NCBI GenBank assembly: GCA_017523785.1
Contig: JAFWVX010000040.1
Coordinates: forward strand, 1-37,343
Length of the DNA: 37,343 nt
Origin: Lachnospiraceae bacterium
GTDB taxonomy: Bacteria > Bacillota > Clostridia > Lachnospirales > Lachnospiraceae
Direction: 5' to 3'
The translations under genes were made by a program, and so were the position numbers. The stretch's first letter is position 1. Each line of letters starts with the position of its first letter. The notes below the pieces were generated by a model. It was not told where the DNA came from. It made no database searches and was given only the letters and a program-made list of their open reading frames with translations. Positions 1,281 through 34,663 of this stretch are shown here, piece by piece.

Positions 1281-2573
1281 CTATTTTAGCATAGTTTTAG
1301 TGATATTTTCCCAAGAAATGCTTGCTAATTCTGGCTTATACGGCTTTTTATCGTCAATAGCTTCAATTATAGCATCTTTTAACCTTTTTTCGAAACCACA
1401 AAGCTCCTCTATGTCGGCATCGTCCACATTGGTCATTTCGGGCAGTTTTACATATTTTATGCAGGCGTTTTTTATATTTGCATCATAAAATGTCTTAACT
1501 CCAGGCAAATCTGAAATTACCACTTTACACCCGCAGGCTAAGGCCTCTATTGGCACCATCGGCACTCCTTCTGAAAATGAAGGTAAAATGAAAATATCAT
1601 GAGAATTGTATTCTTTTGCAAGCTCCGTCTGCTTCATAGGTGGCAAGAAATTAATTTTATTTTGTGAAGTAACACTCTCTTTTAATATTTCATCATATTC
1701 ATTTTTATCGCCAGCACCACCAATTATATCAAGAGAAATATTTTTCTCATCAATCTTCTTAAATGCTTTTACAAGTGACATCACACCTTTTTTCTTAGCA
1801 ACTTTTCCTACATATAATAATTTTGTTTCTTTGTTATCACTTTTAACTAGGTTTTCATCTTTATAAAAGATGTCACTATTATAACCTATACCTATTACTT
1901 CAATTTTATTTTCATCAACATCAAATAGTTCTACAATTTTCTGTTTATGTTCTTCGCTTGGTGAAAATATTTTATCTAGTTTTTTTATATTCTCTTTTAT
2001 AAATTCTCTTTTTAGATCTGTCTGCTGATACTGTCTCAAATCCGTATTATGACAAATCCCAAAAATTTTGTAGGGGACGACATCCTGTCGTCCCATGTGT
2101 GTGCAATCTTTATCATTGTAGGGGCGATCCTTATCATCGTAGGGGCGAGCACTGCGAGCCCGATAATCTGCTACCATTGCTGTAAGTAAATACAGATGAT
2201 GACAAATAATTAAATCCGGTTTAAACCTTCCAATCACTTCTTCAATCTTTTCTTCAAATACTTTCGCCCAAACTGCGAGCAACTTCTCATCATTTGCCAA
2301 ATCACTATATTTAATTGATTCATACGGCATAACATCTGACATACCTGCGATTTTCAAAGGAACTGCTGCCGTATTAAAAATCACTGGGTTATATACGGGC
2401 TCGCATAGCTCGCCCCTACGGTTTTCATCGACACAATTTTGCTCGCCCTCATACATAGCGCAAATAATCTCTTGCTCGTGCCCCATCCTCTTGAAGCATT
2501 TCACAAGTTCCGACAAATATACACCGCTTCCAGTGCTACTAGGTTTTTGTGCTAATACGCTTAATATTCTCAT
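1281..2573 (-). CDS. Glycosyltransferase family 4 (GT-B fold), carrying two palindromic-element inserts
   Basis: This 430-residue protein looks like a retaining GT4 enzyme that would transfer a sugar from a nucleotide-sugar donor to a cell-surface glycan or other acceptor; the substrate cannot be told from sequence. The N-terminal Rossmann half starts MRILSVLAQKPSSTGSGVYL, with the Gly-rich acceptor loop. The donor-binding half begins at LLYVGKVAKKKGV and holds the family E-x7-E motif in EGVPMVPIEALACG near residues 335-343. Two stretches do not look like GT4 sequence and coincide with palindromic repeats: RRGELCEP (DNA 2396-2419) and the segment from RARSARPY to GRQDVVPY (DNA 2070-2162), the latter just before KIFGICHNTDLRQ. 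The start is supported by AGGGGA a few bases upstream. The gene is monocistronic: it has its own promoter (2616-2624) and terminator (1176-1199). Confidence 0.9.
   Translation of the reverse strand: MRILSVLAQKPSSTGSGVYLSELVKCFKRMGHEQEIICAMYEGEQNCVDENRRGELCEPVYNPVIFNTAAVPLKIAGMSDVMPYESIKYSDLANDEKLLAVWAKVFEEKIEEVIGRFKPDLIICHHLYLLTAMVADYRARSARPYDDKDRPYNDKDCTHMGRQDVVPYKIFGICHNTDLRQYQQTDLKREFIKENIKKLDKIFSPSEEHKQKIVELFDVDENKIEVIGIGYNSDIFYKDENLVKSDNKETKLLYVGKVAKKKGVMSLVKAFKKIDEKNISLDIIGGAGDKNEYDEILKESVTSQNKINFLPPMKQTELAKEYNSHDIFILPSFSEGVPMVPIEALACGCKVVISDLPGVKTFYDANIKNACIKYVKLPEMTNVDDADIEELCGFEKRLKDAIIEAIDDKKPYKPELASISWENITKTMLK
2070..2162 (+). repeat. Composite palindromic element inside the glycosyltransferase gene
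   Basis: Three GTAGGGG heads occur in tandem: a full ACGAC-type hairpin at 2070-2094 (GGGACGAC / GTCGTCCC), a truncated copy at 2118-2130 and a GAGC-type copy at 2139-2162. The order and spacer (ATGTGT...TCATT) match the intergenic copy at 32777-32848, so this is a mobile composite rather than native coding sequence. The host frame stays open through it. Confidence 0.85.
2396..2419 (-). repeat. Palindromic element, GAGC type, inside the glycosyltransferase gene
   Basis: GTAGGGGCGAGC - TAT - GCGAGCCCG on the minus strand. It is translated in frame as RRGELCEPV, a different frame from the copies in nnrD. Confidence 0.85.
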
Positions 2574-2615
2574 TCAAAATCCCCTATGGCTTGCGCTATC
2601 CCATATATTAGCCTT

Positions 2616-2624
2616 ATTATAGCA
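2616..2624 (-). promoter_or_regulatory. Extended -10 promoter element of the glycosyltransferase gene
   Basis: TGCTATAAT (TGn plus a perfect TATAAT) lies on the minus strand 43 bases before the ATG. The -35 region (GTATTA, 2644-2639) is poor, as is common with extended -10 promoters. The same TGCTATAAT occurs before gpx at 36302. Confidence 0.6.
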
Positions 2625-2673
2625 TATTTCCCTATATATAATACATATTCTTTGACATCCTACCCCCTATTTA

Positions 2674-2702
2674 TTGAAAAAGCGACATAGTTTTGTTATA
2701 AT
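2674..2702 (+). promoter_or_regulatory. Consensus vegetative promoter of the 2738 gene
   Basis: TTGAAA (2674-2679) and TATAAT (2697-2702) are separated by 17 bases. The expected start near 2709 leaves a leader of about 30 bases that carries GGAGG at 2726-2730. It is divergent from the glycosyltransferase promoter. Confidence 0.75.
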
Positions 2703-2737
2703 TATAGTTTAGAAAAGTAATATATGGAGGGACTATT

Positions 2738-3595
2738 ATGTTAAAAAAGATATCCTTACTTGTAATCGCCGCTATGATCGCAACTAACATTTTTACCTAT
2801 GCAGCAGCACCTAAGACAGCTCTTGACTATGCAACTATGGAATACTCTGGGAACTCTGCAAGAGATTCATTTGAAGAGAGTCTTGCTAAAGATCAAAAGA
2901 AATTTAAAGCTAGACAAAGAAATCAGGATAAGCATTCTGGACCTGGTGCAGTTGAGACATCTGGAAACTATGTAGCAAATCCTGATTTAACAGAATATTT
3001 TGAGACTACTGCTCCACCAGAGTATCAAGGCGACTTCGTTGAGGTAGTTGATCCAAAATATGGCATCACTTTCAGAAGTAAAAGACATTTTAAGACAAAC
3101 CTCGGTGAGTTTGATTTGATTGATGCATCATTTGATCCAGTTGAGAATAATTCTTATACAAATTATCAATTTAGATTAAAGGTTGGAAAAGTAAATCAAA
3201 AATTAACTACATCATATCGTGTATTTTTGAAAGCATATAATGCAGCTGGAGCCTTTGTTGATTATACTTATACTTTCTTCAATCCTGATGTGTCTTTAGT
3301 TCATAGAGAGTTAGCACTTAAATTATTTAAAAATAATGATAGACATGTTGCAAGAATTGAATTCGGATTAGACACAAGCGGAATTGATCCTGCAGTCGTT
3401 GCAAAAAATAATGTTTCTTTCTTCAACTTTGGATATGCAGATTTGTTTGAGAGATTGGCTGCTGCTGACAGTCCATTCACTGAAGAGCAGAAGGCTGAAT
3501 TGATAGCAACATACAATAAGAAATTTGATGCAGATCTTAAAGAAGCAGAGAAAGATGTTGCTATAGTAAATGAAATTCACGAAGTAGTTGAATAA
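2738..3595 (+). CDS. Secreted protein of unknown function
   Basis: I do not recognise this 285-residue protein. It has a clear signal peptide (MLKKISLLVIAAMIATNIFT, cleavage probably after YAAA near residue 24) and no lipobox, wall-sorting motif or later membrane segment. The mature part starts with a charged, probably helical stretch rich in Lys, Gln and Asp (residues 40-70). It continues with a beta-rich middle containing many aromatic residues (KYGITFRSKRHFKTNLGEFD and TSYRVFLKAY) and ends in an acidic helical tail. The start is fixed by GGAGG at 2726-2730, seven bases upstream. It stands alone, with its own promoter and a terminator directly behind the stop, and is the only plus-strand gene in the first 36 kb. 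It may be an abundant extracellular protein, but nothing in the sequence points to an activity. Confidence 0.85.
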   Translation: MLKKISLLVIAAMIATNIFTYAAAPKTALDYATMEYSGNSARDSFEESLAKDQKKFKARQRNQDKHSGPGAVETSGNYVANPDLTEYFETTAPPEYQGDFVEVVDPKYGITFRSKRHFKTNLGEFDLIDASFDPVENNSYTNYQFRLKVGKVNQKLTTSYRVFLKAYNAAGAFVDYTYTFFNPDVSLVHRELALKLFKNNDRHVARIEFGLDTSGIDPAVVAKNNVSFFNFGYADLFERLAAADSPFTEEQKAELIATYNKKFDADLKEAEKDVAIVNEIHEVVE

Positions 3596-3601
3596 TTAAA
3601 T

Positions 3602-3635
3602 AAAAAGAGTTAGGCAATGACCTAACTCTTTTTTT
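3602..3635. terminator. Bidirectional terminator between the 2738 gene and nnrD
   Basis: The stem AAAAAGAGTTAGG / CCTAACTCTTTTT has a 6-base loop and T runs on both strands. It directly follows the plus-strand stop at 3595 and touches the nnrD stop at 3634, so it serves both convergent genes. Confidence 0.9.
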
Positions 3636-4611
3636 ATTTCCCTTTTATCATCTTTATCGCTTCTGCGATATGTCTAACTGTATCACTCGCAGTCATTGAT
3701 ATCTCGCCCTCGTCGCGAGCGGCAAGTTCGCCAGCGAGTCCATTTACAAATGCGGCTGCGACAGTCGCGTCAAAATCATTGTCAATGTAGCCGAGAAGTC
3801 CTGTGATAATTCCTGAGAGGACATCGCCGCTGCCGGCGGTGGACATACCTGGAGTGCCGCGGTTCACTAGTTCTATTTTTACATTCGGGCTCGCAACGCT
3901 CGCCCCTACGAGAGTTGGGCTCGCCCCTACGATAGTAGTTGGGCCCTTTAGTAAAAGGGTGATATTATATTTAGTGACAAACTGTTTTACCCTTTCGATA
4001 TTCGGGCTCGCAGTGCTCGCCCCTACGGAAGTTGGGTTCGCCCCTACATTGGACGACAGGGTGTCGTCCACTACTGAGCCTACAAATGCAGCATCGTAGA
4101 GTCTCTTGAATTCCATAATATGTGGTGTGAGAACTATTCTGCACTTCGCTTTACTTAATATATCAATATTTTCAGATAATATATTTAGTGCATCTGCATC
4201 AAGGACAAGTTTACCTTTAAAGTTTTCTATGATATAGTAGACAATTTCATGTGCACCCTTGCTCTTCCCAAGTCCCATTCCACAAGTTAGGACATCAACT
4301 TTTTCAAGCAAGCCATCTATATTCTCTTTATTGAATATGATTTCATTCTCAGTGCTGTCTATCGGATAAATCATAACTTCAAGTATGTTTTGACTTACTA
4401 TAGGAACTAGATATCTTGGTATCGCCACTGTAGAAAGTCCTGCACCGGACTTGAGTGCGGCAAGTGCCATCGCTGATAATCTTATCGCTCCGCTATACTC
4501 TACCGCACCACCAAGTAGTGCAACTTTTCCATATGTTCCCTTGTGAGAATCTCTAATTCTGTCTGGAATAATTTTTGCTACATCTTCAATTTTTATAACT
4601 TCATTTTCCAT
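3634..4611 (-). CDS. nnrD: ADP-dependent (S)-NAD(P)H-hydrate dehydratase (YjeF C-terminal/ribokinase-like fold)
   Basis: The enzyme would repair damaged NADHX/NADPHX to NAD(P)H using ADP. Family motifs seen are KVALLGGAVEYSGAIRLSA near the start, the Gly-rich TCGMGLGKSKG, LVLDADALNIL, VLTPHIMEF and GMSTAGSGDVLSG (about residue 260, with the catalytic Asp), then NGLAGELAARDEG near the end. The epimerase half (NnrE) is absent, so this is the stand-alone dehydratase. Two segments look foreign and coincide with palindromic elements: VVDDTLSSN...VGASTASPN (DNA 4003-4070) and VGASPTLVGASVASPN (DNA 3886-3930), which bring the length to 325 residues. The ATG lies 6 bases after the stop of the 4618-5298 reading frame and has no good ribosome binding site, so it is probably translated by coupling. 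It would be the last gene of the giant-protein transcript unless an unseen internal promoter exists. Confidence 0.92.
   Translation of the reverse strand: MENEVIKIEDVAKIIPDRIRDSHKGTYGKVALLGGAVEYSGAIRLSAMALAALKSGAGLSTVAIPRYLVPIVSQNILEVMIYPIDSTENEIIFNKENIDGLLEKVDVLTCGMGLGKSKGAHEIVYYIIENFKGKLVLDADALNILSENIDILSKAKCRIVLTPHIMEFKRLYDAAFVGSVVDDTLSSNVGANPTSVGASTASPNIERVKQFVTKYNITLLLKGPTTIVGASPTLVGASVASPNVKIELVNRGTPGMSTAGSGDVLSGIITGLLGYIDNDFDATVAAAFVNGLAGELAARDEGEISMTASDTVRHIAEAIKMIKGK
3886..3930 (-). repeat. Palindromic element, GAGC type plus a half copy, inside nnrD
   Basis: A full copy at 3886-3909 (translated VGASVASP) is followed by a head-only copy at 3917-3930 (translated VGASP). The inserted residues lie between TTIV and the NRGTPGMSTAGSGD motif. 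Confidence 0.85.
4003..4070 (-). repeat. Composite palindromic element inside nnrD
   Basis: A GAGC-type copy (4003-4026, translated VGASTASP), a head-only copy (4034-4047) and an ACGAC-type hairpin (4051-4069, GGACGAC / GTCGTCC, translated VDDTLSS) lie in one run. All are read in the same frame as the copies in the giant gene. Confidence 0.85.
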
Positions 4612-4617
4612 TTACAA

Positions 4618-5298
4618 TTATAGAATTGGAATTATCTGATGTGCAAGATTCTTCTTATCAATAAGTTCACCAGTACTACTGTCAAATGTATAAATCTCAT
4701 CTCCCACAATCAATTCACCTGTGAAGACTGCACCAGTTAGAACTCCCTCCTCTTGCAAGTAATATGTCTTGCCCTCAAACTCTACTAATCCGGTCATCAT
4801 ATATCCATTATTGTCAAATATGTAATAGTAAATTCCGTTGTAATTTGGTATAGCATATACTCCTGCAGTTAATGCACTTGTAGTATTATCCTCATTCTTC
4901 TTCACATACTTCCATCTATTCATAGTTGAGTCAAATAACCAAGTTCCAGTGTTATCTGTGATATTGAGAATTTCTTCTATTATTTTGCCTGATCCTGCTA
5001 TCACATATGTCACATTATTAATTGTAATTGACTGATTCCATAAAGCACCTTTATATTCTCCGTTTTCCATCAAATAATATTTTCCTGCTTCTATTGTTCC
5101 GCTTGCCTCTATCTGTCCAGATTGAATATTAATCGTATATGACTTAGCACCTTCCTCTACTGTTATAAATCCTGTCATCATTTTTCCTTTATTGTCAAAT
5201 GCATAGTAAAGATCTTTTGAACCATCAGAAATCTTATACATACCATTTTTAAGTTGTATGTTCTCACCATTATCTACAACAGCATATTTTGTATTCAT
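4618..5298 (-). CDS. Out-of-frame C-terminal wall-binding domain of the giant protein
   Basis: This 226-residue frame encodes two units of the glucan/choline-binding-like wall-binding repeat: NGMYKI...YYAFDNKGKMMTGF...YYLMENGEYKGALW, then GTWLFDSTMNRWKYV...AGVYAI...YYIFDNNGYMMTGL. It has no signal peptide. The upstream gene ends with GSWVYYPEADDWGYKIS, which matches the GTWLFDSTMNRWKYV that opens the second unit. The first unit is therefore split: its head is in the giant frame and its body is here. Before the ATG the frame stays open back to 5334 (TEIAKALTSNAD), and no ribosome binding site stands before the ATG. One extra A in the AAA at 5334-5336 would fuse the two frames. I read it as a frameshifted tail, not an independent gene. 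Confidence 0.8.
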   Translation of the reverse strand: MNTKYAVVDNGENIQLKNGMYKISDGSKDLYYAFDNKGKMMTGFITVEEGAKSYTINIQSGQIEASGTIEAGKYYLMENGEYKGALWNQSITINNVTYVIAGSGKIIEEILNITDNTGTWLFDSTMNRWKYVKKNEDNTTSALTAGVYAIPNYNGIYYYIFDNNGYMMTGLVEFEGKTYYLQEEGVLTGAVFTGELIVGDEIYTFDSSTGELIDKKNLAHQIIPIL

Positions 5299-5324
5299 AT
5301 CTGCATTGCTAGTAAGTGCCTTTG

Positions 5325-29300: not shown

Positions 29301-30845
29301 TGTCACTGCACCCCATGATGAATACGCATTGAAAGATGCTCCTCCTAATTCAAGTGTTAAATTGTACTCAGTAGCACTGAAAAATACATTGTTTGCATCT
29401 ATTGTTATGACAGGTCTAACTCCAGGCATATAACTATACATAGCACGTGATAAGACACTAGGAGTATATCCCACTTCTACATAATATGCATTAGCTCTAT
29501 TAGACTCATCTATTGTTCTTAGCCAATAGTCTTCTGTGTAATGCGATACTCCTGCTTTATAAATTGTATACTGTGTGGTTGATGATTTCTTTTGCTCATC
29601 TGTCAAAGCATTAAATTCTGAAGTACTTAAAAGGAAAACCTTGTCTGTTGTATTACCTCCCGTTGCTCCACCATTCACTACACTCGTATTAATAATGGCA
29701 GCTTTTTCTGTAGCATTAAAAGCTTTATCATAAAATGTTGAATTTAGCCATTCTCTCATTTGTGAATTTGACCAATATGGATTGGTTCTTGTCGAATCAT
29801 AGTTTCTATTATCAATAGTCTTTGTTGATAATAGCCTATAATATCTTCCACCTGTCACAGATATTACGTGCCACTCTATAGGTTCAACTATATTTTCATT
29901 TGAAGTTGTCTGAGGATAGGAACCAAAAATTACCTTTGATCCTACAATAGGTGTATCACCAAAAAGATCTGTAACAATAGAAATAGATGCGACCTCCAAG
30001 TCAAGAAGCAGTTCTGATGCACTTGCAACTTCAGCATCACTTTCTGTCGCAATTTCGACTTCACTTGTTGTTGCAACTTTTTCTTCTTCAACTATCTCAC
30101 TCTGTGTGCTCTCGTACGGGCGAGTTTCACGAGCCCCACTCTCAGTTGCTATTTCGCTTTCACTCAACTCGTTGCTCTGAGTTTCGCTTTCACTTGCTGT
30201 TGCGATATCCCTATCATCATCTGCCTCTTCAATCTCACTTTTTGTTGCAAGCTCGACTTCTTCGTCTTCACTATGTGCAAACTCATCTTCATCGCTTGCT
30301 CTTGCATCTGAAGGGCTCGCCTCTACACCATCTTCACTCACCTCTTCACTTTCTTCATCAGAGCTTGCAGTAGTCTCCACTTCTGTCTCGTCTTCTTCAG
30401 GCTCTATATCATAATTATCAATTTGGGTTTCTTCTTCGTCATCGAATGTTGTTGAAGGGCTCGCAGGGCTCGCCCCTACAGTTTCTTCACTTTCTTCTTC
30501 AGGGCTCACTTCTTCTTCTGGTTCTTCTTCGTGGGACGACAAAATGTCGTCCCCTACAGTTTCTTCTGGTTCTTCATCAGGGCTCGCAGTGCTCGCCCCT
30601 ACACCATCCTCGTTTGCCCCTACACCATCCTCACTTTCTTCACTGTCATTCATTAGGTAAGTTGTTTTTGAGTAAGAAAACTGCTCGTAATATCTATAAG
30701 TGATATCGCTGTTATCTGGTGCTTCCTCAGTTGCCTTATCAACATAATGAGAAATTGACACAGCAAAAGCACTCATGCCTGAGTTTGAAACTGTCATGGC
30801 AATGAGAAGAATAACTGCTATTAATTTTTTATAACGTGTAAACAT
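5325..30845 (-). CDS. Giant modular secreted adhesin-like protein (8,506 residues)
   Basis: Order of parts: signal peptide (residues 1-29); acidic Glu/Ser stalk with ATxS repeats and palindromic-element inserts (about 65-290); DUF6273-like domain (295-484); InlB-like repeat (about 490-570); seven BspA-like units (678-859); eleven His/Cys-capped beta-helix/InlB modules (914-7153) with a second DUF6273-like domain at about 4270-4445; about 15 InlB-like repeats (7153-8448); 12 Gly (8450-8461); and the start of a wall-binding unit before TAG at 5325. No catalytic domain is visible, so adhesion or a structural surface role is inferred from repeat types only. The rest of the wall-binding domain is out of frame downstream. 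The ATG at 30845 is the only start before the signal peptide; AAAGGA lies 16 bases upstream, rather far, and a 15-codon leader frame precedes it. At roughly 0.9 MDa the protein is among the largest bacterial proteins. Confidence 0.93.
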   Translation of the reverse strand: MFTRYKKLIAVILLIAMTVSNSGMSAFAVSISHYVDKATEEAPDNSDITYRYYEQFSYSKTTYLMNDSEESEDGVGANEDGVGASTASPDEEPEETVGDDILSSHEEEPEEEVSPEEESEETVGASPASPSTTFDDEEETQIDNYDIEPEEDETEVETTASSDEESEEVSEDGVEASPSDARASDEDEFAHSEDEEVELATKSEIEEADDDRDIATASESETQSNELSESEIATESGARETRPYESTQSEIVEEEKVATTSEVEIATESDAEVASASELLLDLEVASISIVTDLFGDTPIVGSKVIFGSYPQTTSNENIVEPIEWHVISVTGGRYYRLLSTKTIDNRNYDSTRTNPYWSNSQMREWLNSTFYDKAFNATEKAAIINTSVVNGGATGGNTTDKVFLLSTSEFNALTDEQKKSSTTQYTIYKAGVSHYTEDYWLRTIDESNRANAYYVEVGYTPSVLSRAMYSYMPGVRPVITIDANNVFFSATEYNLTLELGGASFNAYSSWGAVTKYRSGYEMDLPRLVEMTNIPEGCALGGWEDSSGNVYRKIPTTMTGNLTLTAKWIEEGIRPAWWGVESDGVTPVTRGPNGYRPVNITNIELRNSNDDIVTTYDDYWEEGGYDFYLVGKKVIIRNREGSRIKTIATASRLFSRIGTSGYSTFENVIAIHNLRYLDTSKATTFNSMFAYCSKLETIDLTSFQTSNVTDMAAMFLNCRELKSIDLNGFDTSKVTTMNRLFSNCYALKNLYLNLIDTRNVTDMTSMFYNCASLLQLDVSNLNTSKVTTMLSMFAGCFQVPKLDVSNFDTSNVTDMSGMFQQIDKVKVLDLRNFDTRKVTRMDQMISYNSNLETILVGENFSTAAVTSSWYMFSDDDKLVGGKRTAYADARVEDATYARVDKGPTSSSPGYFTRHVHKDCGLEDNNTCRHQLLQDIHENIEWDYVTNGISAEDFKTLLETAGDKHLFLLSDIGTEGSSDDIAITIRGNVNLCLNGYSLHNVRFAENTTNYKLTITNCYTETSTITQSNSSLNIFTKNHANILGVNNNIRIKAHGIYYVGNNTNANKTVNFFDTTLTPYNDTQVSRYNIYTNTNNQSQQTTINFENTTITGFKSYGVISNAMKVTLKDSTISTTSSTQYLINAASYGGVTLKGNNNISNNTNSGSNSLLLSTSYFNVEDGTTTISNNTLTNQSNVSVLRLTSSFNIAAGAKLSLKNNKQKKIDYSKKVVFIDNNNSSILGDLEICDNKFVSESRLAPTVIPSALSISAGKSITVGSGVITIKDNKVYSDDDGTIENTEQPIIQAYALTTDNSTPFFVQQHGTKFNKNSVIGSIGFSQTNGYGIVMKDWRTNAEDKKSYIENIIADKKRISNVDIGIKDQDLIINRFKTVKFYTYYNGEKVQVATESVFLNYHLLKEDIDDPEDPAPVKRVFLGWALNTDENPDDIIDIENYIITEDTELYAVFENHYHKICGVASGSVCTHTLVTDTHDSVEWVPVEKDMTPEDFKVLLESPGIKYLYLLSNIGIEGSRNHQAIVITDDIYICLNGFSMHNIRFDPNDTTKKVNITNCKNTNSFMTLSEMRFDLFNKNNANIFGINKNITMKADGIFVINDDFNAQKTLNFYDASFEPYDTSVVYKMNISNYDDEAVQATLNIEDCEFSGFNSGGLISGAIKLTMKNTKIQNITCDYEVISIGEYGSLTLYGDNEFKNCTQTGYGNLFHINSDFNIENGTATFENNNGTGDSINFLEVTSLNINTGAKLIINNNKIKQANYDQRMLLLNSSAKILGDLTITNNKFTESSGTSTYKMMALTAAANSMIVGTGSIVIKNNDVYTDEEGTVRNTEQHVYPLYSTITDNSTALFEMEPGCKFSKDTYIEGIAFSQADGFGYILKNWDTLAEDVESFKHNIFADRYDNELLLAAIKDGDLIINIFNTVDFVVMDGDREIVVATQSVLRNYYIKKASTPSDVTGLGRLFMGWSLDKYGGEDSIIDIYSLLINEDKKLYAVFRSHVHKLCGISTASTCTHDGNTHTTSVNWMALLKEVKDEDINDYLNGTKGGLGQYICLQKNITLTSEQITLTRDINICLNGYSITGSFKESEHKVLITNCQDTVSKIGNTDMEVFNNVNFDIYGIDKSGVKNINIVGGRYIHIDTTSSKQVYIYNATFVKKKTTAANDYDAIYVGNAEGRKEITFDNVNVESTSVTDSQYTNTNFMASEGSKENTKISFKNVNISGYTSYKVQLIYSVSATINFYGTNIITNNTGNDVIIDNRILGAFDSDINIVDGELFINNNKITSGNVLYINENTKLVINENAELEISNNRIRKHNYQGVINSIGKIEAFGKLRIQNNKIVEAVGESFDIAAGILRSERSSIKIGNNPIIINNNNVYEDEEGTIINPEQTVFAIWSMATNFNTPIFVQQEGTKFSKDSIIDGIGFEGDRAFGYIIKNWNESTAEDYEGYNNNFKINTFRNEGKNLSINKYKGGIVIACFYNIEFMYDETTYVPTISTQSVFVNEYIEKVASPSHPSGKSKYFLGWATKSDATKDEVIDIYVRPVNADIKLYTVYEEHKHKICGLDIGSACNHTGIDDHSENIDFDVITNEYISKNGFPKSGNYYLREDITLRAFVQVNDTLNLCLNGFELKEVRFSSDNNSTINITNCDDDATSIKALTNPEASTTQETYALFNTMNVNVIAAKGTIDINADHIINTEYVSVKQDQTFYNVNFKNVTSNITRGAVFKVSYTANLNSILRIVESNISDYNILGNSLFDTQNVITEFENTTITDNTTNNSLFNNAGTIEFLYTTIEGNNVAKDFIRSANANSVINILDGNEFKENIVGGHFIYALNGITFDGSSTINRNTFNNNNEAKPFIWANASEPIEFLNGNIIISENVDGATSNSPYSFVYTENDLRIVNSAKAIIRNNRLKNSTGNYSIIYNANNSNLITLDNSGSLEIFDNEVQQNAPNDNIKAAILVSKNKKINISSGSIIINGNTITGTESGNTHMFGIYSEETNNTTAIFNQTSNKFNKNSFINSIGFAERDGFGRIIDNWTELTAEDVESYKDIFIGDSYGKTGRKLVAVYDEEYKFVALSERYIVNFLYNDGSDIGIASQSIIRGKVIAAVATPSDPTGREREFMGWATKSDATLDEIIETMTYEIYEDTNFYTVFQLFEEHKHKICGLYTEGSCMHNGVLAHSGFVEYEALTSVYIRRHGFPTSGNFFLFEDLTITTEVTVSDTLNLCLNGKTLNFVKFTSSDRKEVNIGNCQVANASIRAAADEILFDGVVPKLLSVGGPIDIYADSVIAFENATSVDRIESLNIAFRPVSSSVTRNVVFGTSYSAENGSRVFIASSSISNYNLTSGSLILNHNNTWFAQKLYIYNNDISAHMLNNEGSFTMTEVIASANTIHLSAIQNNVTGASVTYRSGTVFANNKFYRQFLYNSREIRYDGDLSFINNEYNIGSDAYAFMHSNYTSATTFINGTVLFDGNKDMTTNNRASSGFLYFEAGVNVYNSTKIIIRNNKFVKTTGSQSIFTIQSGGSFLTLTGTAQIRIEDNEYRQDINTDSLVTAFYVRAGQQITMANSSFYIKNNRITGSYSDRNHMYGLYSGALNESTPIFVQSSGNFSDENYIDSVAFGTESGFGVITENYVGTEDPVELAKRIVADPYKRHSLKTIIDGNRLIIGDAFNAEFKYEDDTYIPTIPTQSVIAGEFIERVATPSDPKGKGRKFLGWATKSDANPKDLIEITTYVLTEDTVFYAIFETHMHTICGVSTTSCTHTLLPEKHDIVAWNEIVENATIDEFKSAMEVNKEKNLCLTSDIGDEAGSEYVTITLTADTYLCLNGHSIHNVRFNQSNYKLVITNCKPVVSHITRNTDDGVLFISNDVDIYGRDNNINVKGFNVYNNTQNTEKAFNAYSVSFTQFDNSIEANQVFTTPTDNASQLVSMKFEDVEIYNFNATALFGRALELTLKNSRINGNKAERSLFDITSNGKDIVFEANNDIYDNESIGGSRALIDTAKNIIIEKSATLNVYNNKIERTYQDQKFLEFKNGDKILGNLVVSENKFVSAVGASNNISAAAYVLSGATVTVGTGSIVIKDNDVYTDADGTIKNTVQKVYQLYSANDDDTTPIFTQSAGTKFATSSYIAGIGFAHTEGFGHIIDNWTAETTDNVDAYNDIFVAETFRKEANKLETILINNNVIINAVFKVAFMYDDDAYVPGLSTQSILKNKHITAVASPSDPTGAGRIFIGWATKSNANKEDIIDFASFAVTKDIKLYATFVKLPLNPGEDIFFGIYPQSSDDEYVYDPLRWKVVDVVGYRALLVAEKIIGNEQYNSVDEATTWETSSIRTWLNNTFYNYPNSFTDDEKDVIENRSGDKFFLLSIEEARDMFENDEARKAEKTRRVSLAENRYYLRSVGSGDNRAAAVNADGSINAVGGIVTDTSYGTRPAFYADITSKLLNATYSNITWDLTGRNLIDDSNWLDMTTYREGFVTKLPTADNFTDGSNFKGWQINDSDEFYKEIPETITGDITLKAFFGFKVEFMYDESTYIPTIATQNVLVNEYAKAVATPSDPKGKGRNFIGWATKSDATEDDVIKIDEYQITDDTIFFAVFSSHNHKICGIGTMSCTHTIVDGTHAVVEWYPIGKKITVAEFKSKLETDDIKYLYLESDIGIEGSSNYESIAIGGDTYICLNGHSIHNVRFNTTTYNLTITNCQETISSITRNTDDATIFNSNNVDIFGVNKNIAIKGYNIYTNSVTETKAFNAYDVTFTQYNTNVDANQVFATSVDNASQLTSMKFEKVNLSGFSGNALFSRALGITLKNVNIYDSKFERTIFDIGANGQDITLDGSVDIYGNESIGGSRALIDTAKNIIIEKSATLSVYNNKIERTYQDQKFLEFKNGDKILGSLNVTENKFVSAVGASNNISAAAYVLSDATVTVGSGSIVIKDNDVYTDADGTIKNTSQKVYQLYGATYDATTPLLVQESGTKFATSSYIDGIGFANIEGLGHIIDNWTADTTYNVNSYKDIFKLEPFRRENRNLKVLLYRDNVIIYTTYDVEFMYDETTYTGIATQSILKNNYIESVASPSDPLGKGRIFVGWATKSNATEDDAIVITNYQITENIKFYAVFSSHSHKICGVASGSVCTHTLVTDEHRVVDWAPVPVNISVGDFATLLQSSGDKYLYLRSNIGTEGGDHASVVITANVNICLNGFSIHNVRFDANDTDFKVTITNCQATSDAAITQSDNSHDVFNKNFVNVYGISKNITIKSNGIYYTNGTSNAQKTLNFYNVKFTQYTSSAITRYNIYTSDNSTARRTTVTLESCEFSGFNSQSIMKNAIMLTMKDTNIKNNRSTQQLLSLTSYGSLKLKGNNEISNNTNTGTAGLISMESALSVEDGVTNIHSNYITADAQTFFTQSGAFTIAKGAKFTFSRNRMAKRAGSQQFILFGTNDTKLLGDFEVSGNKIVSASGTSTYITRAVDMQSYNATVGSGSIIIKGNDVYTDASGNNKNRQQHVYGLYSAITNNSSPLLTQETGTKFATSSMIDSVMFSQTNGFGVIMRDWTTNTEDVDSYLTSIVADRTRRSTLKTVLNGANLVINDGYYVEFMFDERTYAGIATQAIIVNGNPHPVSTPADLSGENRTFLGWSETPLDKENLVDLASYRVTRDIKLYAIFNYHIHTICGVASESCTHRLVDEVHSAVKFKEIEKGTTVNEFKVIIEDANEKYLFLDTDIGIEGSSDYQTITLTADTYLCLNGHSIHNVRFNATNYNLTITNCQRTVSSITRNTDDATIFNSNNVDIFGVNKNIAIKGYNIYTNSVTETKTFNAYDVTFTQYNTNVDANQVFATSADNVSQLTSMTFEKVDISGFNGNVLFNRALGIRIKDVNISNNKFERTIFDIGANGQDIILDGNVDIYANETLGGNRALINTTKNILVERTATLSVINNKIERTYQDQKFLEFKNGDKMLGKLVVTNNKYISATGSSNNISSAVYVINGSSVTVGTGSIVIKDNDVYTDATGTIKNTVQKVHQLYSATDDGNSPIFIQESGSKFNSSSFIGGIGFAHVEGYGHIINNWTTETAEDVEAYKNIFITETFRKERNDLRTLLYENNVIINAVYDVEFMFDKDTRVQEIATQSVLKYKYVTTVASPSDPTGAGRTFLGWATKSDADRKDVINIYQYPIKSNTKFYTVYDSHIHTICGVASGSCTHSLDTNVHRAVMWSGVEEGIGTSEFKTLLEEPREKYIYLNSNIGVEGSSDYRSVVLTADTYICLNGFSIHNIRFNQTAYKLVITNCQNTISNLTRDTDDGNMFTANNVDLYGVNKNLLVKGYSIYNNSTNANRSFNAYDVRFIQYDSSIQGNQVFSTSADSAAQFTSMKLEKVDISGFNGMVVFNRALGLSVKDITISNNKMERTIFDISTNGSDIIFAGNNNIDNNEIAETGKAIVGTSKNIIVEKAATLSVTHNNIKRDTQAQKFLELKNGDKILGSLIVKNNKFVSATGTNENIASAIYMAQGQTVVVGSGSIVISDNDVYTDENGNTKNNQQHVYQLYSATNDNSTAIFTQENNTKFKASSYIAGISFNHADGYGHIIDNWTYATAENKNKFDSIFKADSYRIESKRPMVALEENNVIITSSYYVEFFLSEGVYASDVATQSVVRNGKVKPATPSLIVGAEKFLGWATSVDETQYWDYENDRVTADTKLYAKFLMGETHLHKVCGISSTSTCLTHTESDFGDHTSNIFYEPVTKSDMVDKISSIAAESEVSIYLVEDVISDTPVVVYLGNATNGTRANPAEAVINICLNGHILKGYTFVTRNKNININITNCQDKLSTITNISSDAFAKGGTYTYTQVTNTYTSSSRVDLRLFGNKDKNLKLVSDKIVGWSPATTTRYSTFASDNVVFTEYSNANNKLLLDKLNTDPYIYNSVFDKFTNVDNIMTRNSGNATYKLKDSVFSNISATNTLFENTTLDISGEVVIGTVSAARNILSANINVNRAATLSIINNKLARNTLGNAFINMTNETSMNILGSLVVKDNKVVGCTATNNSGIIAAINMNNKTMVVGDAPIVVKNNTSDGNASTYANHHMYGIYSALQDDNTAIMAQTANTKHSKNTYVDSIAFARANGFGHIINNWTRETAEDINSYKTSFIADKFIHDDLITSVYKNNLVIGNYTEYKVYFISTISEVQKNLATQSIVNRGTASEPDVIKVSGYEFKGWYKDSAYTEKFDFENTLITEDTAVYVKYEKAGPEIFKVVFVSTVSDAAIEAAIATQNIVYRGTASEPRVSYEGYDFIGWFTDTTYTTRFDFINTLITQDTTIYAKWISNKYIVNLNARGGVYGSGRETKTEAVDLDDYVAFEEPTRDGYTFLYYEYNNAKVHNRWDYGAIAGATLYAKWAPNTYTISFAANGGQGLMPTQKATYGETIKLNNNTFTKEGYTFAGWKLGNNSYSDRADVSNLTTINRGIVTLTAEWNALTYNINYRGNGATSGGMASELNVAYGADHTLIANSYGKTQYTFNGWALSATSQAVYANAAVISAKEGYRRTIDLYADWILTSSIKGTIVYNGGGGLVDGVSNYTRHFANGDTIPVPTLYREGYEFTGWTRDGSAYTLPETCDFDGTITLTANWRKIKYKVAYYANNGSEAKFESPEYEYDTEVTIANIDPSYTKENYHFAYWSYDANDETKAFDAGNTTSKLSSIDGDKVELYAVWKGNEYTITFDGSSPTAGDMPSKTYVYGDNKSIPVNTFTKAGYKFSGWSLTEGADRVDFYNFEIADNIYNRVRTSDIRIYAVWVLAEEAVDLIFDANGGNINGRTRIKASLVRNTQITFPIADYMGYTVNGWLNEDKITPFTNATVDFTDSKLIFANWAIGSYTVEFIGSHADNPGVMTSVTKQFNEEFELSQNTYERLGYRFIGWDVNADGEKVVFVDKQLVSKLAKANATIKLYSVWEEETYVINYIDAGRVVASTSILFTHAMRLRPNAIPVGVKDKGYEYTYSGGTKRFTSGQFVTLKDFEVTAATRAFNLVSKIESAIYNIIFDANGGTWEDGTTEVKRATISYGQKIVWPATPSRGTRAFLGYRVDGETFTGDTYIYYADKAFVADWESATYRVVFHPNVPVSPGGYTNELQGDMQDQPFRENERKKLAKNYFVVRGYDFVGWATTSYVPKDAEAMKASKSELIIGDLSYRSFGGDDPTTLHLYAMWERRIIKLKLLQHENYTPTQVDPYAGIIDLRYDQKLSELSYFDGKTRNGYTFSGKFIRSKIVDAIDRKNYAGTDYWTMDTTNRELREVTLYPLWLNNEYTVTLNIGNGSMPDGYNNLTFTAFYDAPYNTRGASGEPKYAKGNIVSPYASPSNVRMFNYWSSDAAGSNAVDLNALYLDTSINTLYAQYKVRRTFRVSFDASGGTGTMADQTFVEGIAQALSPVAFEKKRFDFKYWKADNGRDTYGNRQVITVSANMVLSAVWEKQSSGGGGGGGGGGGGTLPANMVKSGTVDSVINAEVNESDGSWVYYPEADDWGYKISAKQR
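5463..5498 (-). repeat. Run of 12 glycine codons in the giant gene
   Basis: Twelve Gly codons (mixed GGC, GGT and GGA) follow QSS and precede TLPANMV. This GC-rich block stands out in an AT-rich gene and separates the InlB-like repeats from the wall-binding region. It is a flexible linker and a likely site of copy-number change. Confidence 0.9.
5500..9385 (-). repeat. C-terminal array of about 15 InlB-like beta repeats in the giant gene
   Basis: Units of about 65-100 residues recur with the family pattern: a strand such as YTISFAANGG, a central GYTFAGW-type core and a closing LYAxW. Closings seen in order include TIYAKWIS, TLYAKWAP, TLTAEWNA, DLYADWIL, TLTANWRK, ELYAVWKG, RIYAVWVL, KLYSVWEE, HLYAMWER, TLYPLWLN and VLSAVWEK. 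Units are clearly diverged, unlike the modules upstream. Such repeats usually serve as stalks or spacers in surface proteins. Confidence 0.85.
9385..28106 (-). repeat. Eleven tandem His/Cys-capped beta-helix + InlB modules of the giant gene
   Basis: Each module opens with HxH[KT]xCG...CxH; the first His codons end at 28106, 26456, 24830, 23159, 21347, 19583, 17033, 15485, 13856, 12305 and 10757. Next come a strand-rich part with [IL]CLNG and ITNC, an Asn-rich body of many INNN-type turns typical of parallel beta-helices, a conserved GSIVIKDNDVYTD stretch and HIIDNW. Each ends with an InlB-like repeat (VEFMYD...ATQS...ASPSDPTGxGRxFxGWATKSDA...LYAVF). Spacing is about 515-605 residues; module 11 is about 457 and module 6 is longer because a DUF6273-like domain follows it. 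By body type, modules 1, 2 and 8 group together, as do 4 and 5, and 6, 7, 9 and 10; 3 and 11 stand apart. Confidence 0.9.
17515..18035 (-). other. Second DUF6273-like domain, inserted between modules 6 and 7
   Basis: It begins GEDIFFGIYPQ, continues with LRWKVVDVVGYRALLVAEKI, WETSSIRTWLNNTFYN, FTDDEKDVI and KFFLLSIEEA, and ends near GTRPAFYADIT. This is the order of motifs known for DUF6273 (FGxYPQ, xW, RxWLNxxF, FLLSxxE, GxRPxx). An InlB-like repeat of its own follows before module 7. Confidence 0.75.
28269..28814 (-). repeat. Seven BspA-like (DUF285-type) 26-residue repeats in the giant gene
   Basis: Seven exact 26-residue (78-base) units with the pattern DTSxVTxMxxMFxxCxxLxxLDLxxF. Units alternate between a NVTDM and a K[VA]TT[MF]-type core. 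BspA-like repeats form short leucine-rich solenoids in surface proteins of oral and gut bacteria and mycoplasmas, where binding to host proteins has been reported for some. Confidence 0.88.
29395..29960 (-). other. First DUF6273-like domain of the giant protein
   Basis: Motifs in order: SKVIFGSYPQ, IEWHVISVTGGRYYRLLSTK, YWSNSQMREWLNSTFYDKAF, KVFLLSTSEF, YWLRTIDES and MPGVRPVITID (residues about 295-484). The domain family is common in secreted Firmicutes proteins and has no assigned function that I know of. Confidence 0.78.
30114..30136 (+). repeat. Degenerate palindromic element in the giant gene
   Basis: GTACGGGCGAGT - TTC - ACGAGCCC. The loop-closing pair is T-A instead of C-G. It is translated on the minus strand as GARETRPYE. 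Confidence 0.7.
30313..30326 (-). repeat. Degenerate palindromic-element fragment in the giant gene
   Basis: GTAGAGGCGAGCCC on the minus strand differs from the head of a GAGC-type half copy by one base and is translated VEASP. Confidence 0.5.
30457..30479 (-). repeat. Palindromic element, GAGC type, in the giant gene
   Basis: GTAGGGGCGAGC - CCT - GCGAGCCC, translated VGASPASP within the Glu-rich stalk. Confidence 0.85.
30533..30557 (-). repeat. Palindromic element, ACGAC type, in the giant gene
   Basis: Perfect 8-bp stem GGGACGAC / GTCGTCCC, translated VGDDILSSH within the Glu-rich stalk. Confidence 0.85.
30580..30623 (-). repeat. Palindromic element, GAGC type plus a half copy, in the giant gene
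   Basis: A full copy at 30580-30602 (VGASTASP) is preceded in translation by a head-only copy at 30611-30623 (VGANE), the same full-plus-half arrangement as in nnrD. Confidence 0.85.
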
Positions 30846-31064
30846 TTTTTTATAGTTGGGTTCCTTTATTACTTTTTTTCAATATCAAAAACAACACTTT
30901 TGCCTGCCCTCCAAAAATGTACACTAAAACCACGAATAGATAAAATCCACTCGCTCTATATTATGTCTTAATTATACATAAAAAACACTATATTTTGTAG
31001 TTTTTAGCAAAAAATTAATAAATTCTTAATAATTTGCATATTCTTAAAAAAGCCATGAAAACAT
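30846..31064 (-). promoter_or_regulatory. Leader region of the giant gene with a 15-codon upstream reading frame
   Basis: On the minus strand a strong GGAGGG (30912-30907) stands nine bases before a GTG (30897-30895). The GTG opens a 15-codon frame (VLFLILKKSNKGTQL) ending at TAA 30852-30850, four bases before the giant ATG and in a different frame. The giant gene's own AAAGGA (30867-30862) lies inside this small frame. A TATAAT hexamer is at 30976-30971, but I see no matching -35. Whether the small frame is translated is an inference. Confidence 0.35.
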
Positions 31065-31092
31065 CAAAAAATGGCAGTTTTCTGCCATTTTT
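31065..31092. terminator. Terminator after gpmI
   Basis: Stem ATGGCAG / CTGCCAT with a TTTT loop, flanked by an A run and a T run so that it works on both strands. It lies 19 bases beyond the gpmI stop and would separate the five-gene cluster from the giant gene. Confidence 0.88.
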
Positions 31093-31110
31093 AAGGTTTT
31101 TAACAATTTT

Positions 31111-32679: not shown

Positions 32680-32694
32680 GTATACTCCTTTTTT

Positions 32695-32746
32695 GTAGGG
32701 GACGACATTCTGTCGTCCCTTGGGCGGACAAAATGTCCGCCCCTAC
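32695..32746. repeat. 52-base inverted doublet of palindromic elements, between trmL and gpmI
   Basis: An ACGAC-type and a GGAC-type hairpin (GGGCGGAC / GTCCGCCC) face each other, so the whole doublet runs from GTAGGGG to CCCCTAC. It is identical to 34573-34624 except for one base, and the 18 bases that follow (ACATCACATTTACATTGT) are also shared. Confidence 0.9.
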
Positions 32747-32776
32747 ACATCACATTTACATTGTGATCCTTTTTTT

Positions 32777-32877
32777 GTAGGGGACGACATTCTGTCGTCC
32801 CATGTGTTGACAAATCTCATCATTGTAGGGGCGAGCACTGCGAGCCCGAATCTCGTAGGGGCGGATACCATCCGCCC
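32777..32877 (+). repeat. Three palindromic elements in direct order, between trmL and gpmI
   Basis: ACGAC type (32777-32801), GAGC type (32825-32848) and GGAT type (32855-32877, GGGCGGAT / ATCCGCCC). The first two and their spacer resemble the composite inside the glycosyltransferase gene. No T run follows any stem, so these are not ordinary terminators. Confidence 0.88.
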
Positions 32878-32882
32878 ATTTG

Positions 32883-33440
32883 TTACTTGTACTTTAAATT
32901 ATGTAATTCACCTTTTTCTACAAGCCCATTGAAATTATTTTGTCTCAACGCCTCATACAATACTATCGCCACCGAATTCGACAAATTTAACGACCTCTCA
33001 TTTTCTATCATCGGTATCCTTATACAGTGTTCTTCATCACTCGCAAGTATTTCTTCTGGAATTCCTGCGGATTCTTTTCCAAACATTATAAAGTCTCCAT
33101 CATTAAATTTCACATCTGTATAACTCTTGTGAGCCTTTGTAGTTGCGAACCACAGTGTGGGCTCGCAGTGCTCGCCCCTGCTTGGGCTTGTAAACTGCGC
33201 CCCTACATCTTCGTACGGGCGAGCCCTCCTTATGTACTCCAAAAATTCATTATAAGAATCATGAGTAAATAACTTTAGCCTCTCCCAATAATCAAGCCCC
33301 GCATGGTGAATATTCTTTCTCGTAAGTTGAAAACCAATCGGATAAATCAAATGAAGTGCAGAGCCAGTTGCGACACAGGTTCTGCCTATATTTCCAGTGT
33401 TATCAGGTTTTTCAGGTTCATGTAAAACTATATTAAACAT
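32883..33440 (-). CDS. trmL: tRNA (cytidine(34)-2'-O)-methyltransferase, SPOUT family, with an element-derived insert
   Basis: The enzyme would methylate the wobble ribose of certain leucine tRNAs. SPOUT/TrmL motifs are clear: HEPEKPDNTGNIGRTC at the start, FGKESAGIPEEIL, and the AdoMet-binding knot IPMIENERSLNLSNSVAIVLYEALR near the end. TrmL is usually about 150-160 residues; this one has 185 because about 25 extra residues (roughly 72-95, RARPYEDVGAQ...GEHCEP) lie between FLEYI and LWFATTKAHKSYTDV, exactly where palindromic elements sit in the DNA. I chose ATG at 33440, one base after the TAA of the preceding gene, which suggests coupled translation; a TTG at 33449 would add three residues. 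Fold tolerance of the insert is unknown, and the motifs on both sides are intact. Confidence 0.93.
   Translation of the reverse strand: MFNIVLHEPEKPDNTGNIGRTCVATGSALHLIYPIGFQLTRKNIHHAGLDYWERLKLFTHDSYNEFLEYIRRARPYEDVGAQFTSPSRGEHCEPTLWFATTKAHKSYTDVKFNDGDFIMFGKESAGIPEEILASDEEHCIRIPMIENERSLNLSNSVAIVLYEALRQNNFNGLVEKGELHNLKYK
33159..33226. repeat. Cluster of palindromic elements inside trmL
   Basis: A GAGC-type copy at 33159-33181, a diverged copy at 33184-33206 and a head fragment (GTACGGGCGAGCCC) at 33213-33226. The first is read as RGEHCEP, a third reading frame of the same element. Confidence 0.8.
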
Positions 33441-33441
33441 A

Positions 33442-34497
33442 TTAACCAAATTTAAATATCAAAATTCTTGTATCAAATTTTCCATCAGATGAAAATACTC
33501 TCTGCATCGTGCATCTACCCGGAATTGTTATGTAATCATTTAACCAAGTTCCTGAGTCGATTGAAAATAAGTTTTGTGTGTTCGGTCCAGTGACTACAGT
33601 GACAACATTTTCACCTGCAACGAGATGTGTCAATATATATGTTGTAATCTCTAAATCATTGTTGCTTGCGATGAAATTTGAATTGTTGTCATACTTCGCT
33701 CCAATTAAAAGCAGTTTATCTATCGCAGATTTTTTTCCATTTTCATCATTTGCCAAACTATACATCGCAATCTCTTGCACGTATTGCTTCCTAAGCAAAT
33801 CGACATTCGCATTCAAATCGACAACGCCAGTATTTAAATAATATGTGACAACATTTTTTCCATACTTGGTCGCAGTGCAACTATGCCCTGTTTCTCTTAT
33901 GTGATTACTTGCAAATTCCGCATCGGTGCAATTTATATAATTGTTGAATAACTGATTTGCCTGAAGTGTGATATTTGTAATTGGGTCTTCAAATGTCACA
34001 TCCACGTTATACCACTCGCCATCAAGATATATTCGATTCCAAGCATGTGCACCATTTTGACTTGCTGAATTAATCGCCTCGCCAGTCACAACTGTAGTTG
34101 AAAGCCCACAAGTTTTCGCCATAAGATCAAATGCCTTCGCATAGCCAGAGCAGACGGCTTTGTGATTTACAAGTGCACCATAAGCTTTATAACTATCGTT
34201 TATAAAAAAAGAATCATTTGAAAGTTCATCTATATCATAAGTCACAGTCGCAACGAGGTATTTTATGATCTCAATTTCTTTTTCGAAGTCGGTCATATTT
34301 GGTCTTATGTGACTCATTATAAAATTATTTACAACATTTATAATCTCAGTATTTTGACTCTCATCTTCTGCAAGGTAAGTTGCGATAAGAGAAGGGTCAA
34401 GGCCGATGGTTGCGATGTTTACAGCAAAAATATTACTTATTGAACTAAGTAATAAAATCGTTGTTAACAACAAACTTGTAAACCGTTTTTTTATCAT
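33442..34497 (-). CDS. Secreted transglutaminase-like (papain-fold) protein
   Basis: Transglutaminase-like domains act as cysteine proteases, peptidases or cross-linkers; the substrate here is unknown. Numbered from the upstream ATG at 34515, the triad is C122 (KAVCSGYAKAF), H157 (NGAHAWNRIYL) and D172 (WYNVDVTFEDP), the usual Cys-His-Asp order. A signal peptide (MIKKRFTSLLLTTILLLSSI) starts at 34497. I prefer that start because the alternative ATG at 34515 lies inside a degenerate palindromic element (34505-34528) that would have brought it in; neither ATG has a good ribosome binding site. The C-terminal 150 residues after the triad are not recognised. The stop overlaps the trmL start region by coupling (one base between), so the two are co-transcribed. 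The protein would act outside the cell. Confidence 0.88.
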   Translation of the reverse strand: MIKKRFTSLLLTTILLLSSISNIFAVNIATIGLDPSLIATYLAEDESQNTEIINVVNNFIMSHIRPNMTDFEKEIEIIKYLVATVTYDIDELSNDSFFINDSYKAYGALVNHKAVCSGYAKAFDLMAKTCGLSTTVVTGEAINSASQNGAHAWNRIYLDGEWYNVDVTFEDPITNITLQANQLFNNYINCTDAEFASNHIRETGHSCTATKYGKNVVTYYLNTGVVDLNANVDLLRKQYVQEIAMYSLANDENGKKSAIDKLLLIGAKYDNNSNFIASNNDLEITTYILTHLVAGENVVTVVTGPNTQNLFSIDSGTWLNDYITIPGRCTMQRVFSSDGKFDTRILIFKFG

Positions 34498-34504
34498 ATA
34501 CTGT

Positions 34505-34528
34505 GGCACTCGCATAACTCGTGTCTAC
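34505..34528 (-). repeat. Degenerate palindromic element over the alternative start of the transglutaminase-like gene
   Basis: GTAGACACGAGT - TAT - GCGAGTGCC on the minus strand. It keeps the GA/GA core, and the outer arm is changed on both sides (CAC / GTG), so pairing is retained. The ATG at 34515 is formed by the loop. Confidence 0.55.
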
Positions 34529-34534
34529 GAATAT

Positions 34535-34557
34535 GGGCTCGTAAAACTCGCCCATAC
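34535..34557 (-). repeat. Palindromic element, GAGT type
   Basis: GTATGGGCGAGT - TTT - ACGAGCCC, with a T-A loop-closing pair replacing C-G. Confidence 0.8.
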
Positions 34558-34572
34558 ATTTTTATATCAATT

Positions 34573-34624
34573 GTAGGGGACGACATCCTGTCGTCCCTTG
34601 GGCGGACAAAATGTCCGCCCCTAC
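34573..34624. repeat. 52-base inverted doublet of palindromic elements, second copy
   Basis: Matches 32695-32746 with one difference (C for T in the first loop) and shares the same 18-base right flank. Confidence 0.9.
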
Positions 34625-34640
34625 ACATCACATTTACATT

Positions 34641-34663
34641 GTACGGGCGAGCACTGCGAGCCC
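34641..34663 (+). repeat. Palindromic element, GAGC type, just after the binding-lipoprotein stop
   Basis: GTACGGGCGAGC - ACT - GCGAGCCC, eight bases from the stop at 34671. There is no T run after the stem on either strand, so a terminator role is unlikely. Confidence 0.85.

Follow-up and report, generated by a model that had tools for sequence, protein, structure and literature searches.

Repetitive extragenic palindromic (REP) elements with a GTAG head in front of a hairpin, and the inverted REP pairs called REPINs, have been described together with REP-associated tyrosine transposases (RAYTs, or TnpA-REP) (PMC2817692, 2010; PMC3116915, 2011; PMC3733652, 2013). RAYT genes lie between two inverted REPs (PMC2817692), and the roles of the GTAG and of stem mismatches are treated for E. 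coli (PMC8266576). The 2013 survey defines GTAG and CGTC REPs and assigns GTAG families to Proteobacteria, Cyanobacteria, Chloroflexi and the PVC group; it also lists intragenic copies with the residues that they encode, which may be neutral in linkers or loops (PMC3733652). Such copies, read as residues singly or in groups, occur in O. terrae, Thauera and Xanthomonas recB, and two Xanthomonas species have different REPs at roughly one and the same site of recB (PMC3733652). Palindromes in frame inside unrelated protein genes are also a feature of the Rickettsia palindromic elements (RPEs), of which RPE-4 and RPE-6 are the intragenic CGTC repeats of R. conorii, with no dedicated CGTC transposase (PMC3733652). 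Here we describe short palindromic elements in a 37,343-nt stretch of DNA (the window) and in the genome to which it belongs (G000; 1.216 Mb in 48 contigs, 56% complete), where they lie both between genes and, in frame, within genes. They are very probably GTAG-tagged REPs and REPINs of a RAYT system, a minority of which persist in frame in tolerant gene loops.

The first-pass annotation of the window had presented these elements as a family without a known description. This does not hold, since the anatomy is that of GTAG-tagged REPs with a RAYT, and in-frame GTAG REPs were published in 2013 (PMC3733652). Both have the GTAG head and hairpin, exceed 100 copies, form inverted pairs 2 nt apart, come with an element-flanked RAYT and include some in-frame copies, and the present elements fit this known kind.

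The heptamer GTAGGGG occurs 20 times in the window, as compared with a mean of 0.73 and a maximum of 3 in 100 dinucleotide-preserving shuffles. Four main classes of 22–25 nt were distinguished: A (GTAGGGGCGAGCACTGCGAGCCC), B (GTAGGGGCGGATATCATCCGCCC), C (GTAGGGGACGACATTCTGTCGTCCC) and D (GTAGGGGCGGACATTCTGTCCGCCC). All four carry the GTAG head directly 5' of the hairpin, and none has the CGTC tag of RPE-4 and RPE-6. In-frame elements in the genes for a GT4-type glycosyltransferase, NnrD and TrmL and in a giant open reading frame (ORF) were found as the first-pass annotation had claimed, as were the elements of the intergenic blocks 32695–32877 and 34535–34663. The elements and their host genes are as follows.

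1281..2573, minus strand: host gene, GT4-type glycosyltransferase (Pfam Glycos_transf_1; congeners aligned)
2070..2094, plus strand: class C REP (GTAGGGGACGAC..GTCGTCCC), antisense in the GT4 gene
2118..2138, plus strand: degenerate REP head within the GT4 gene
2139..2161, plus strand: class A REP (GTAGGGGCGAGCACTGCGAGCCC), antisense in the GT4 gene; peptide RARSARPY
2397..2419, minus strand: class A REP, sense in the GT4 gene; peptide RGELCEP
3634..4611, minus strand: host gene, NnrD-type NAD(P)H-hydrate dehydratase (TIGR00196, E=1.3e-53; orthologues)
3887..3909, minus strand: class A REP in NnrD; peptide VGASVASP; adjoining degenerate head copy at 3910–3930
4004..4026, minus strand: class A REP in NnrD; peptide VGASTASP; degenerate head copy at 4027–4047
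4050..4074, minus strand: class C REP in NnrD, decayed, with GTAG head, from sequence reading and alignment; peptide VVDDTLSS
5325..30845, minus strand: host gene, giant 8506-aa repeat protein, with REPs in its acidic N-terminal part
30457..30479, minus strand: class A REP in the giant ORF; peptide VGASPASP
30533..30557, minus strand: class C REP in the giant ORF; peptide VGDDILSS
30580..30602, minus strand: class A REP in the giant ORF; peptide VGASTASP; head remnant at 30617–30623
32695..32719, plus strand: class C REP between trmL and the 31111–32679 gene, forming the left half of a REPIN
32722..32746, minus strand: class D REP, right half of the same REPIN, 2 nt from the 32695..32719 REP
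32777..32801, plus strand: class C REP, intergenic
32825..32847, plus strand: class A REP, intergenic
32855..32877, plus strand: class B REP (GTAGGGGCGGATACCATCCGCCC), intergenic
32883..33449, minus strand: host gene, TrmL-type tRNA 2'-O-methyltransferase (TIGR00185, E=1.1e-51; orthologues)
33159..33181, minus strand: GCAG-headed class A REP in TrmL; peptide RGEHCEP
33184..33206, minus strand: class A-like REP in TrmL; peptide VGAQFTSP
34535..34557, minus strand: decayed class A REP, intergenic, read from the sequence
34573..34597, plus strand: class C REP, left half of a second REPIN
34600..34624, minus strand: class D REP, right half of the second REPIN
34641..34663, plus strand: class A REP with GTAC head, intergenic

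TrmL scores 174.8 bits against TIGR00185, under the cut-off of 190.6. The peptides predicted earlier are largely as given: VGASTASP, RARSARPY and the RGEHCEP of TrmL stand, although the supposed RGEHCEP of the glycosyltransferase reads RGELCEP, and NnrD and the giant ORF hold the variants VGASVASP, VGASPASP and VGDDILSS in addition to VGASTASP. The giant ORF contains many diverged direct repeats with a spacing of about 1.55 kb and more, and its N-terminus, where its REPs are located, is acidic and serine-rich.

Classes B and C are predicted to form strong hairpins behind the unpaired GTAG (−9.4 and −10.1 kcal/mol, z about −5). The class A fold is weak because of two mismatched stem positions (−4.1 kcal/mol, z −0.93, equalled by 32 of 200 shuffles). 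Stems comprise 8–9 bp with a 3-nt loop in classes B to D and are imperfect, with the two mismatches, in class A. REPINs, with heads outward and a 2-nt spacer, account for five pairs (10 of 106 sampled elements) in G000, all extragenic, and the pair at 32695–32746 is predicted to fold as two separate hairpins. Elsewhere we found one inverted pair in G005 (6-nt spacer) and none in G008.

The genome carries two RAYT genes, each with GTAG hairpins at both ends. RAYT-1 (172 aa) sits between two class B elements in inverted orientation, the upstream one stopping 11 nt short of the ATG and the downstream one beginning 1 nt past the stop. It matches Y1_Tnp above the cut-off and the NCBIfam model NF047646, 'REP-associated tyrosine transposase', with E=4.9e-22, and its best match among solved structures is TnpA-REP 4er8 (E=3.4e-4). 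The protein contains PNHLHML and WQKSFYEHIVRDEKDY..YNP, which we take to be the HUH motif and the C-terminal tyrosine domain of the Y1 family. RAYT-2 (161 aa), recovered in the NF047646 family search, has a class D element 4 nt past its stop and another GTAG palindrome, read by eye, before its start. Among congeners, the RAYTs of G003 and G009 (the latter frame as read being 73 aa) are flanked on each side by elements of the class A type. When named genomes were scanned with three RAYTs and the best 80 of 385 loci were used, these relatives were mainly from Clostridia by title; a GTAG hairpin was present within 200 nt upstream of 17, downstream of 11 and on both sides of 6, as against 2 of 80 at an upstream control position 2 kb away, and under this strict test 58 of the 80 have none. 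It is these genes, together with the GTAG head, that speak against a protein-coding palindromic family of the Rickettsia type unrelated to REP/RAYT, where CGTC repeats have no dedicated transposase. In unrelated enzymes, the in-frame copies that loops tolerate do behave as RPEs, but we see very little chance that the elements belong to such a family.

A search of the whole genome, suggested by the first-pass annotation, used the pattern GTAGGGGN{11,17}CCC with the reversed pattern as a control. It yielded 170 matches in G000 (control, 0), and the elements are thus not restricted to the window; the in-gene copies among the sampled elements were scored for frame. The comparison set comprised 40 genomes including G000, among them 11 congeners and 12 genomes of other genera of the family. 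Congeners have from 4 to 425 matches each (G004, 4; G005, 120; G008, 425), and the 12 other-genus genomes have 0 to 14, nearly always no more than the reversed-pattern count. Genomes of other genera in general mostly do not exceed their control, with the exception of G024, from another family of the order, which has 50 matches, many with a consensus of their own.

The REPs of G008 form tandem arrays in one orientation with a spacing of about 47 nt, eleven of them consecutive at C10:93–586, and few are in genes; 80 of the 83 sampled are 24 nt long. G024 has its own set of GTAG REPs at C3 91631–92509 (GTAGGGGCGGATTCCATATCCGCCC and relatives); among these copies lies a partial RAYT match (91757–91948).

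The share of elements within genes was determined from the DNA around listed elements of G000, G005 and G008, a subset of the 170, 120 and 425 matches that in G008 covers all listed places except seven. ORFs of at least 100 codons that passed a codon-usage filter were considered, and matches with the four outer bases unpaired were dropped (113 to 106 in G000, 89 to 75 in G005, and 90 to 83 in G008). In G000, 45 of the 106 elements are inside ORFs, 60 outside and 1 overlapping, with 25 host genes; the 75 elements of G005 divide into 22 inside (18 hosts), 48 outside and 5 overlapping, and the 83 of G008 into 8 inside (4 hosts) and 75 outside. Random 23-mers fall inside ORFs at far higher rates (0.89, 0.86 and 0.84, respectively), and genes are therefore depleted of elements (binomial p < 1e-28 in each genome, in which clustered copies are not independent). 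Most in-gene copies of G000 (34 of 45) lie at least 50 codons from either ORF end, and 2 are near the end. When the 24 G000 hosts other than the giant ORF were scanned with Pfam, 4 matched nothing and 20 gave a match: LepA, MnmA, MnmE, MnmG, KsgA, TrmL, CysS, HisS, RecG, threonine synthase, a U32 peptidase, an ABC ATPase, a nucleotidyl transferase, a histidine kinase, a radical SAM protein, a glycerol-3-phosphate acyltransferase, a class V aminotransferase, a GIY-YIG protein, GT4 and NnrD. In the G005 sample five genes have the TAG of an element head as their stop codon, and none do so in the samples of G000 and G008; genes ending at the TAG of a REP head have been reported for REPs elsewhere (PMC3733652).

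Extragenic elements might conceal genes that they have split. We asked whether two same-strand neighbors match different parts of one relative, which was testable at 52 of 146 places (48, 48 and 50 in G000, G005 and G008), and found no such case (0/25, 0/17 and 0/10, respectively); thus we saw no gene split by an element and no change of frame across one. The same count bears on the idea that the elements are untranslated, being bypassed by ribosomes or removed from the message. Mobile bypass elements occur in some mitochondria, and GC-rich palindromes within AT-rich genes would be in keeping with them. However, no ORF is split at an element at any of the 52 places, and ORFs continue through the in-gene elements, albeit by definition of the test, and we regard bypass or removal as scarcely credible.

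The elements had been described as stop-free in several frames, and this is correct in that mostly four or five of the six are open, although never all, as one sense frame always stops at the TAG of the GTAG head. Five frames are open in 81 of the 106 G000 elements and four in the other 25; the figures are 31 (five), 41 (four) and 3 (three) of 75 in G005, and 78 (five) and 5 (four) of 83 in G008. In-gene copies of G000 use the two open sense frames 19 and 16 times and the three antisense frames 4, 3 and 3 times; the design of the ORF test excludes copies in the TAG frame, and their lack is no evidence.

Elements within genes of the three genomes are strongly biased in orientation, with 63 in the sense and 12 in the antisense direction. 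This runs counter to the frame constraint, since at most two sense frames are open but up to three antisense frames. Between co-oriented genes the ratio is 117:28, which does not differ (Fisher p 0.59), and therefore the bias is not particular to coding; we accordingly rejected selection on the peptides as its cause. Only two of the genes point the opposite way from their neighbors; their six elements all follow the gene, and threonine synthase accounts for five of the six. The orientation of 195 of 264 elements is also in agreement with the regional GC skew, a measure confounded with gene direction. We entertain, with considerable doubt, a further proposal in which a live RAYT/REP system would act as a standing loop generator, with sense-biased entry into transcribed genes and with the loops of RNA-modification enzymes refilled across species and frames. 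Sense entry would be preferred because the transposition intermediate would target single-stranded DNA exposed by transcription. The agreement with GC skew counts against such targeting, and replication direction is thus a possible cause of the bias; a role of the elements in the message is another candidate.

Host proteins were compared with orthologues, as the first-pass annotation had proposed for TrmL, NnrD and the GT4 protein. Between the anchors LDYW and TTKA, TrmL of G000 has 46 residues where 19 relatives from other genera have exactly 25. Among congeners this loop is 53 and 58 residues long in G009 and G010, which carry other elements, 30 to 37 in G001, G002 and G005, where elements appear to have decayed, and 29 to 36 in G003, G008 and G011, which have no element. 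The first NnrD loop has 55 residues in G000 and 32–34 in most other genera, with 50 in G005, where the element is decayed; the second holds an exact element in G005, another class in G001 and none in G009. In KsgA the first loop is 55 residues long with the elements of G000 and 16–31 in element-free relatives, G005 (40) and G006 (35) carrying other elements, and the second loop has elements in G000, G005 and G001. The MnmE loop between the NKxD and STKT motifs contains an element in G000 (27 residues), G005 (35) and G009 (34). Longer loops at element positions than in element-free orthologues are thus shown for TrmL, NnrD and the first KsgA loop; MnmE was rejected as a clean insertion, as its anchored loop lengths without an element are 13–27 residues. 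Different REP classes or frames are found in the same loop across congeners in TrmL, NnrD, KsgA and MnmE, an occupancy read from alignments that may reflect shared descent or repeated insertion.

With loop limits set by hand, the identities of core and element loop between G000 and G005 are 0.84 and 0.31 for NnrD, 0.90 and 0.30 for TrmL, 0.86 and 0.31 for KsgA, and 0.90 and 0.27 for MnmE. Loops that are 27–31% identical next to cores that are 84–90% identical suggest that the peptides are tolerated rather than selected. AlphaFold models have confident cores with pLDDT < 50 at TrmL 81–92 and at NnrD 184–200 (the first insert), and place the second NnrD insert between two strands. The view that the elements supply new peptide segments therefore stands insofar as residues are added to enzymes as raw material, but beyond this we see rapid divergence and segments that are loops or modelled with low confidence. 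These data also bear on whether the inserted segments are selected (exaptation, a new enzyme property), with useful loops being refilled. That several species have elements in the same loops of KsgA, MnmE, TrmL and NnrD is consistent with exaptation, as is the plain count of eight RNA-modification or translation proteins (LepA, MnmA, MnmE, MnmG, KsgA, TrmL, CysS and HisS) among the 24 Pfam-scanned hosts. The divergence of the loops weighs on the other side, and length and reading frame vary by species with some congener loops being element-free; we consider selection of the segments improbable, and we infer that the inserted peptides are neutral.

The explanation of the whole that we favor is that RAYT transposases of the genus copy non-autonomous hairpins into single-stranded DNA, both the mobilization and the single-strand route being inferred. 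Most surviving copies are extragenic because insertions into genes would usually be lost. As the elements are short and mostly stop-free in four or five of six frames, a minority would enter flexible loops without a frameshift and be retained as added residues. Such loop copies would then diverge, be replaced or gain neighbors, and orthologues of sister species would as a result hold different elements in the same loop.

Several observations weigh against this REP/RAYT account. As a protein RAYT-1 scores 78.4 bits, just below the curated NF047646 cut-off of 80, and no match above that cut-off was found anywhere in the genus. In G000 (56% complete) we found no RAYT with flanking elements of class A, which is the commonest, and neither G005 (98% complete, with 120 pattern matches) nor G004 (4 matches) has a RAYT match. 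A survey of RAYT flanks in the congeners, which leaves out G006, showed further irregularities: the RAYT of G001 has only one element, downstream and with a GTAC head; that of G010 has one, upstream and in the opposite orientation; that of G008 has one upstream element and an inner stop in frame; and one G011 RAYT is without any flanking element. In G002 and G007 the matching proteins are longer and no REP was found beside their genes, although in G002 only 2 nt of contig are available downstream.

On the side of the host genes, some loops are long without a recognizable element: the TrmL loop of G007 has 53 residues, the first NnrD loop 41 in G001 and G009, 51 in G010 and 65 in G006, and the MnmE loop of G014 is as long as those with an element. 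By alignment, the second KsgA loop is about 20 residues long without an element in several congeners, and GT4 loops vary in length in congeners even without elements. Loop length therefore varies anyway, and the elements are one source of this variation among others. The proposed alignment shows TrmL and NnrD to be longer than in relatives without elements, and loops as long without a recognizable element occur in several congeners but not in the 19 other-genus TrmL proteins. In G000, the ORF start is less than 50 codons away for nine of the 45 in-gene copies, some of which may be untranslated leader, as may the elements that stand near the ORF start and before the domain in LepA, CysS, the nucleotidyl transferase, the acyltransferase, the GIY-YIG protein and three of the five threonine synthase copies. 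Finally, the 63:12 sense bias in genes is without explanation under the REP/RAYT account.

Less expected of GTAG REPs are the in-gene share, the reuse of loops across species and a sense bias that is equal outside genes. Whereas most copies are intergenic in the 2013 survey, 42% of those sampled in G000 and 29% in G005 are intragenic; the RAYT relatives are mainly from Clostridia, which is absent from the GTAG phyla given there; and loops are reused across several congeners in four genes (TrmL, NnrD, KsgA and MnmE), as compared with recB in two Xanthomonas species (PMC3733652). A literature search, with most subscription journals outside it, recovered no description of a Clostridia-type family with such an in-gene share and cross-species loop occupancy in the texts at hand. 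REPs are usually treated as extragenic, and here two species keep 29–42% of sampled copies in reading frames. The hosts include translation and RNA-modification enzymes, and close relatives without the same insertions provide natural with/without pairs for the cost of insertion; the set can also be used to study target choice by RAYT systems. Should the host belong to Clostridia, as the RAYT relatives suggest, it adds a host group to those of the 2013 survey (PMC3733652).

We note two minor observations. In G005, contigs C3, C7 and C8 contain, at six listed places, a second repeat close to GTAGGGGGTGGTGCTGGGGAGACCC whose ends are unpaired, located 28–50 nt from GTAGGGGCGAGTTACACGAGCCC, as if the two were parts of one larger module. 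In the window, the ORF at 34671–35705 encodes a lipoprotein-like product with a His/Asp/Glu-rich loop (HHHDEEDGEEHHEGEEEEHHEEE), which is presumably of the metal-transport type.

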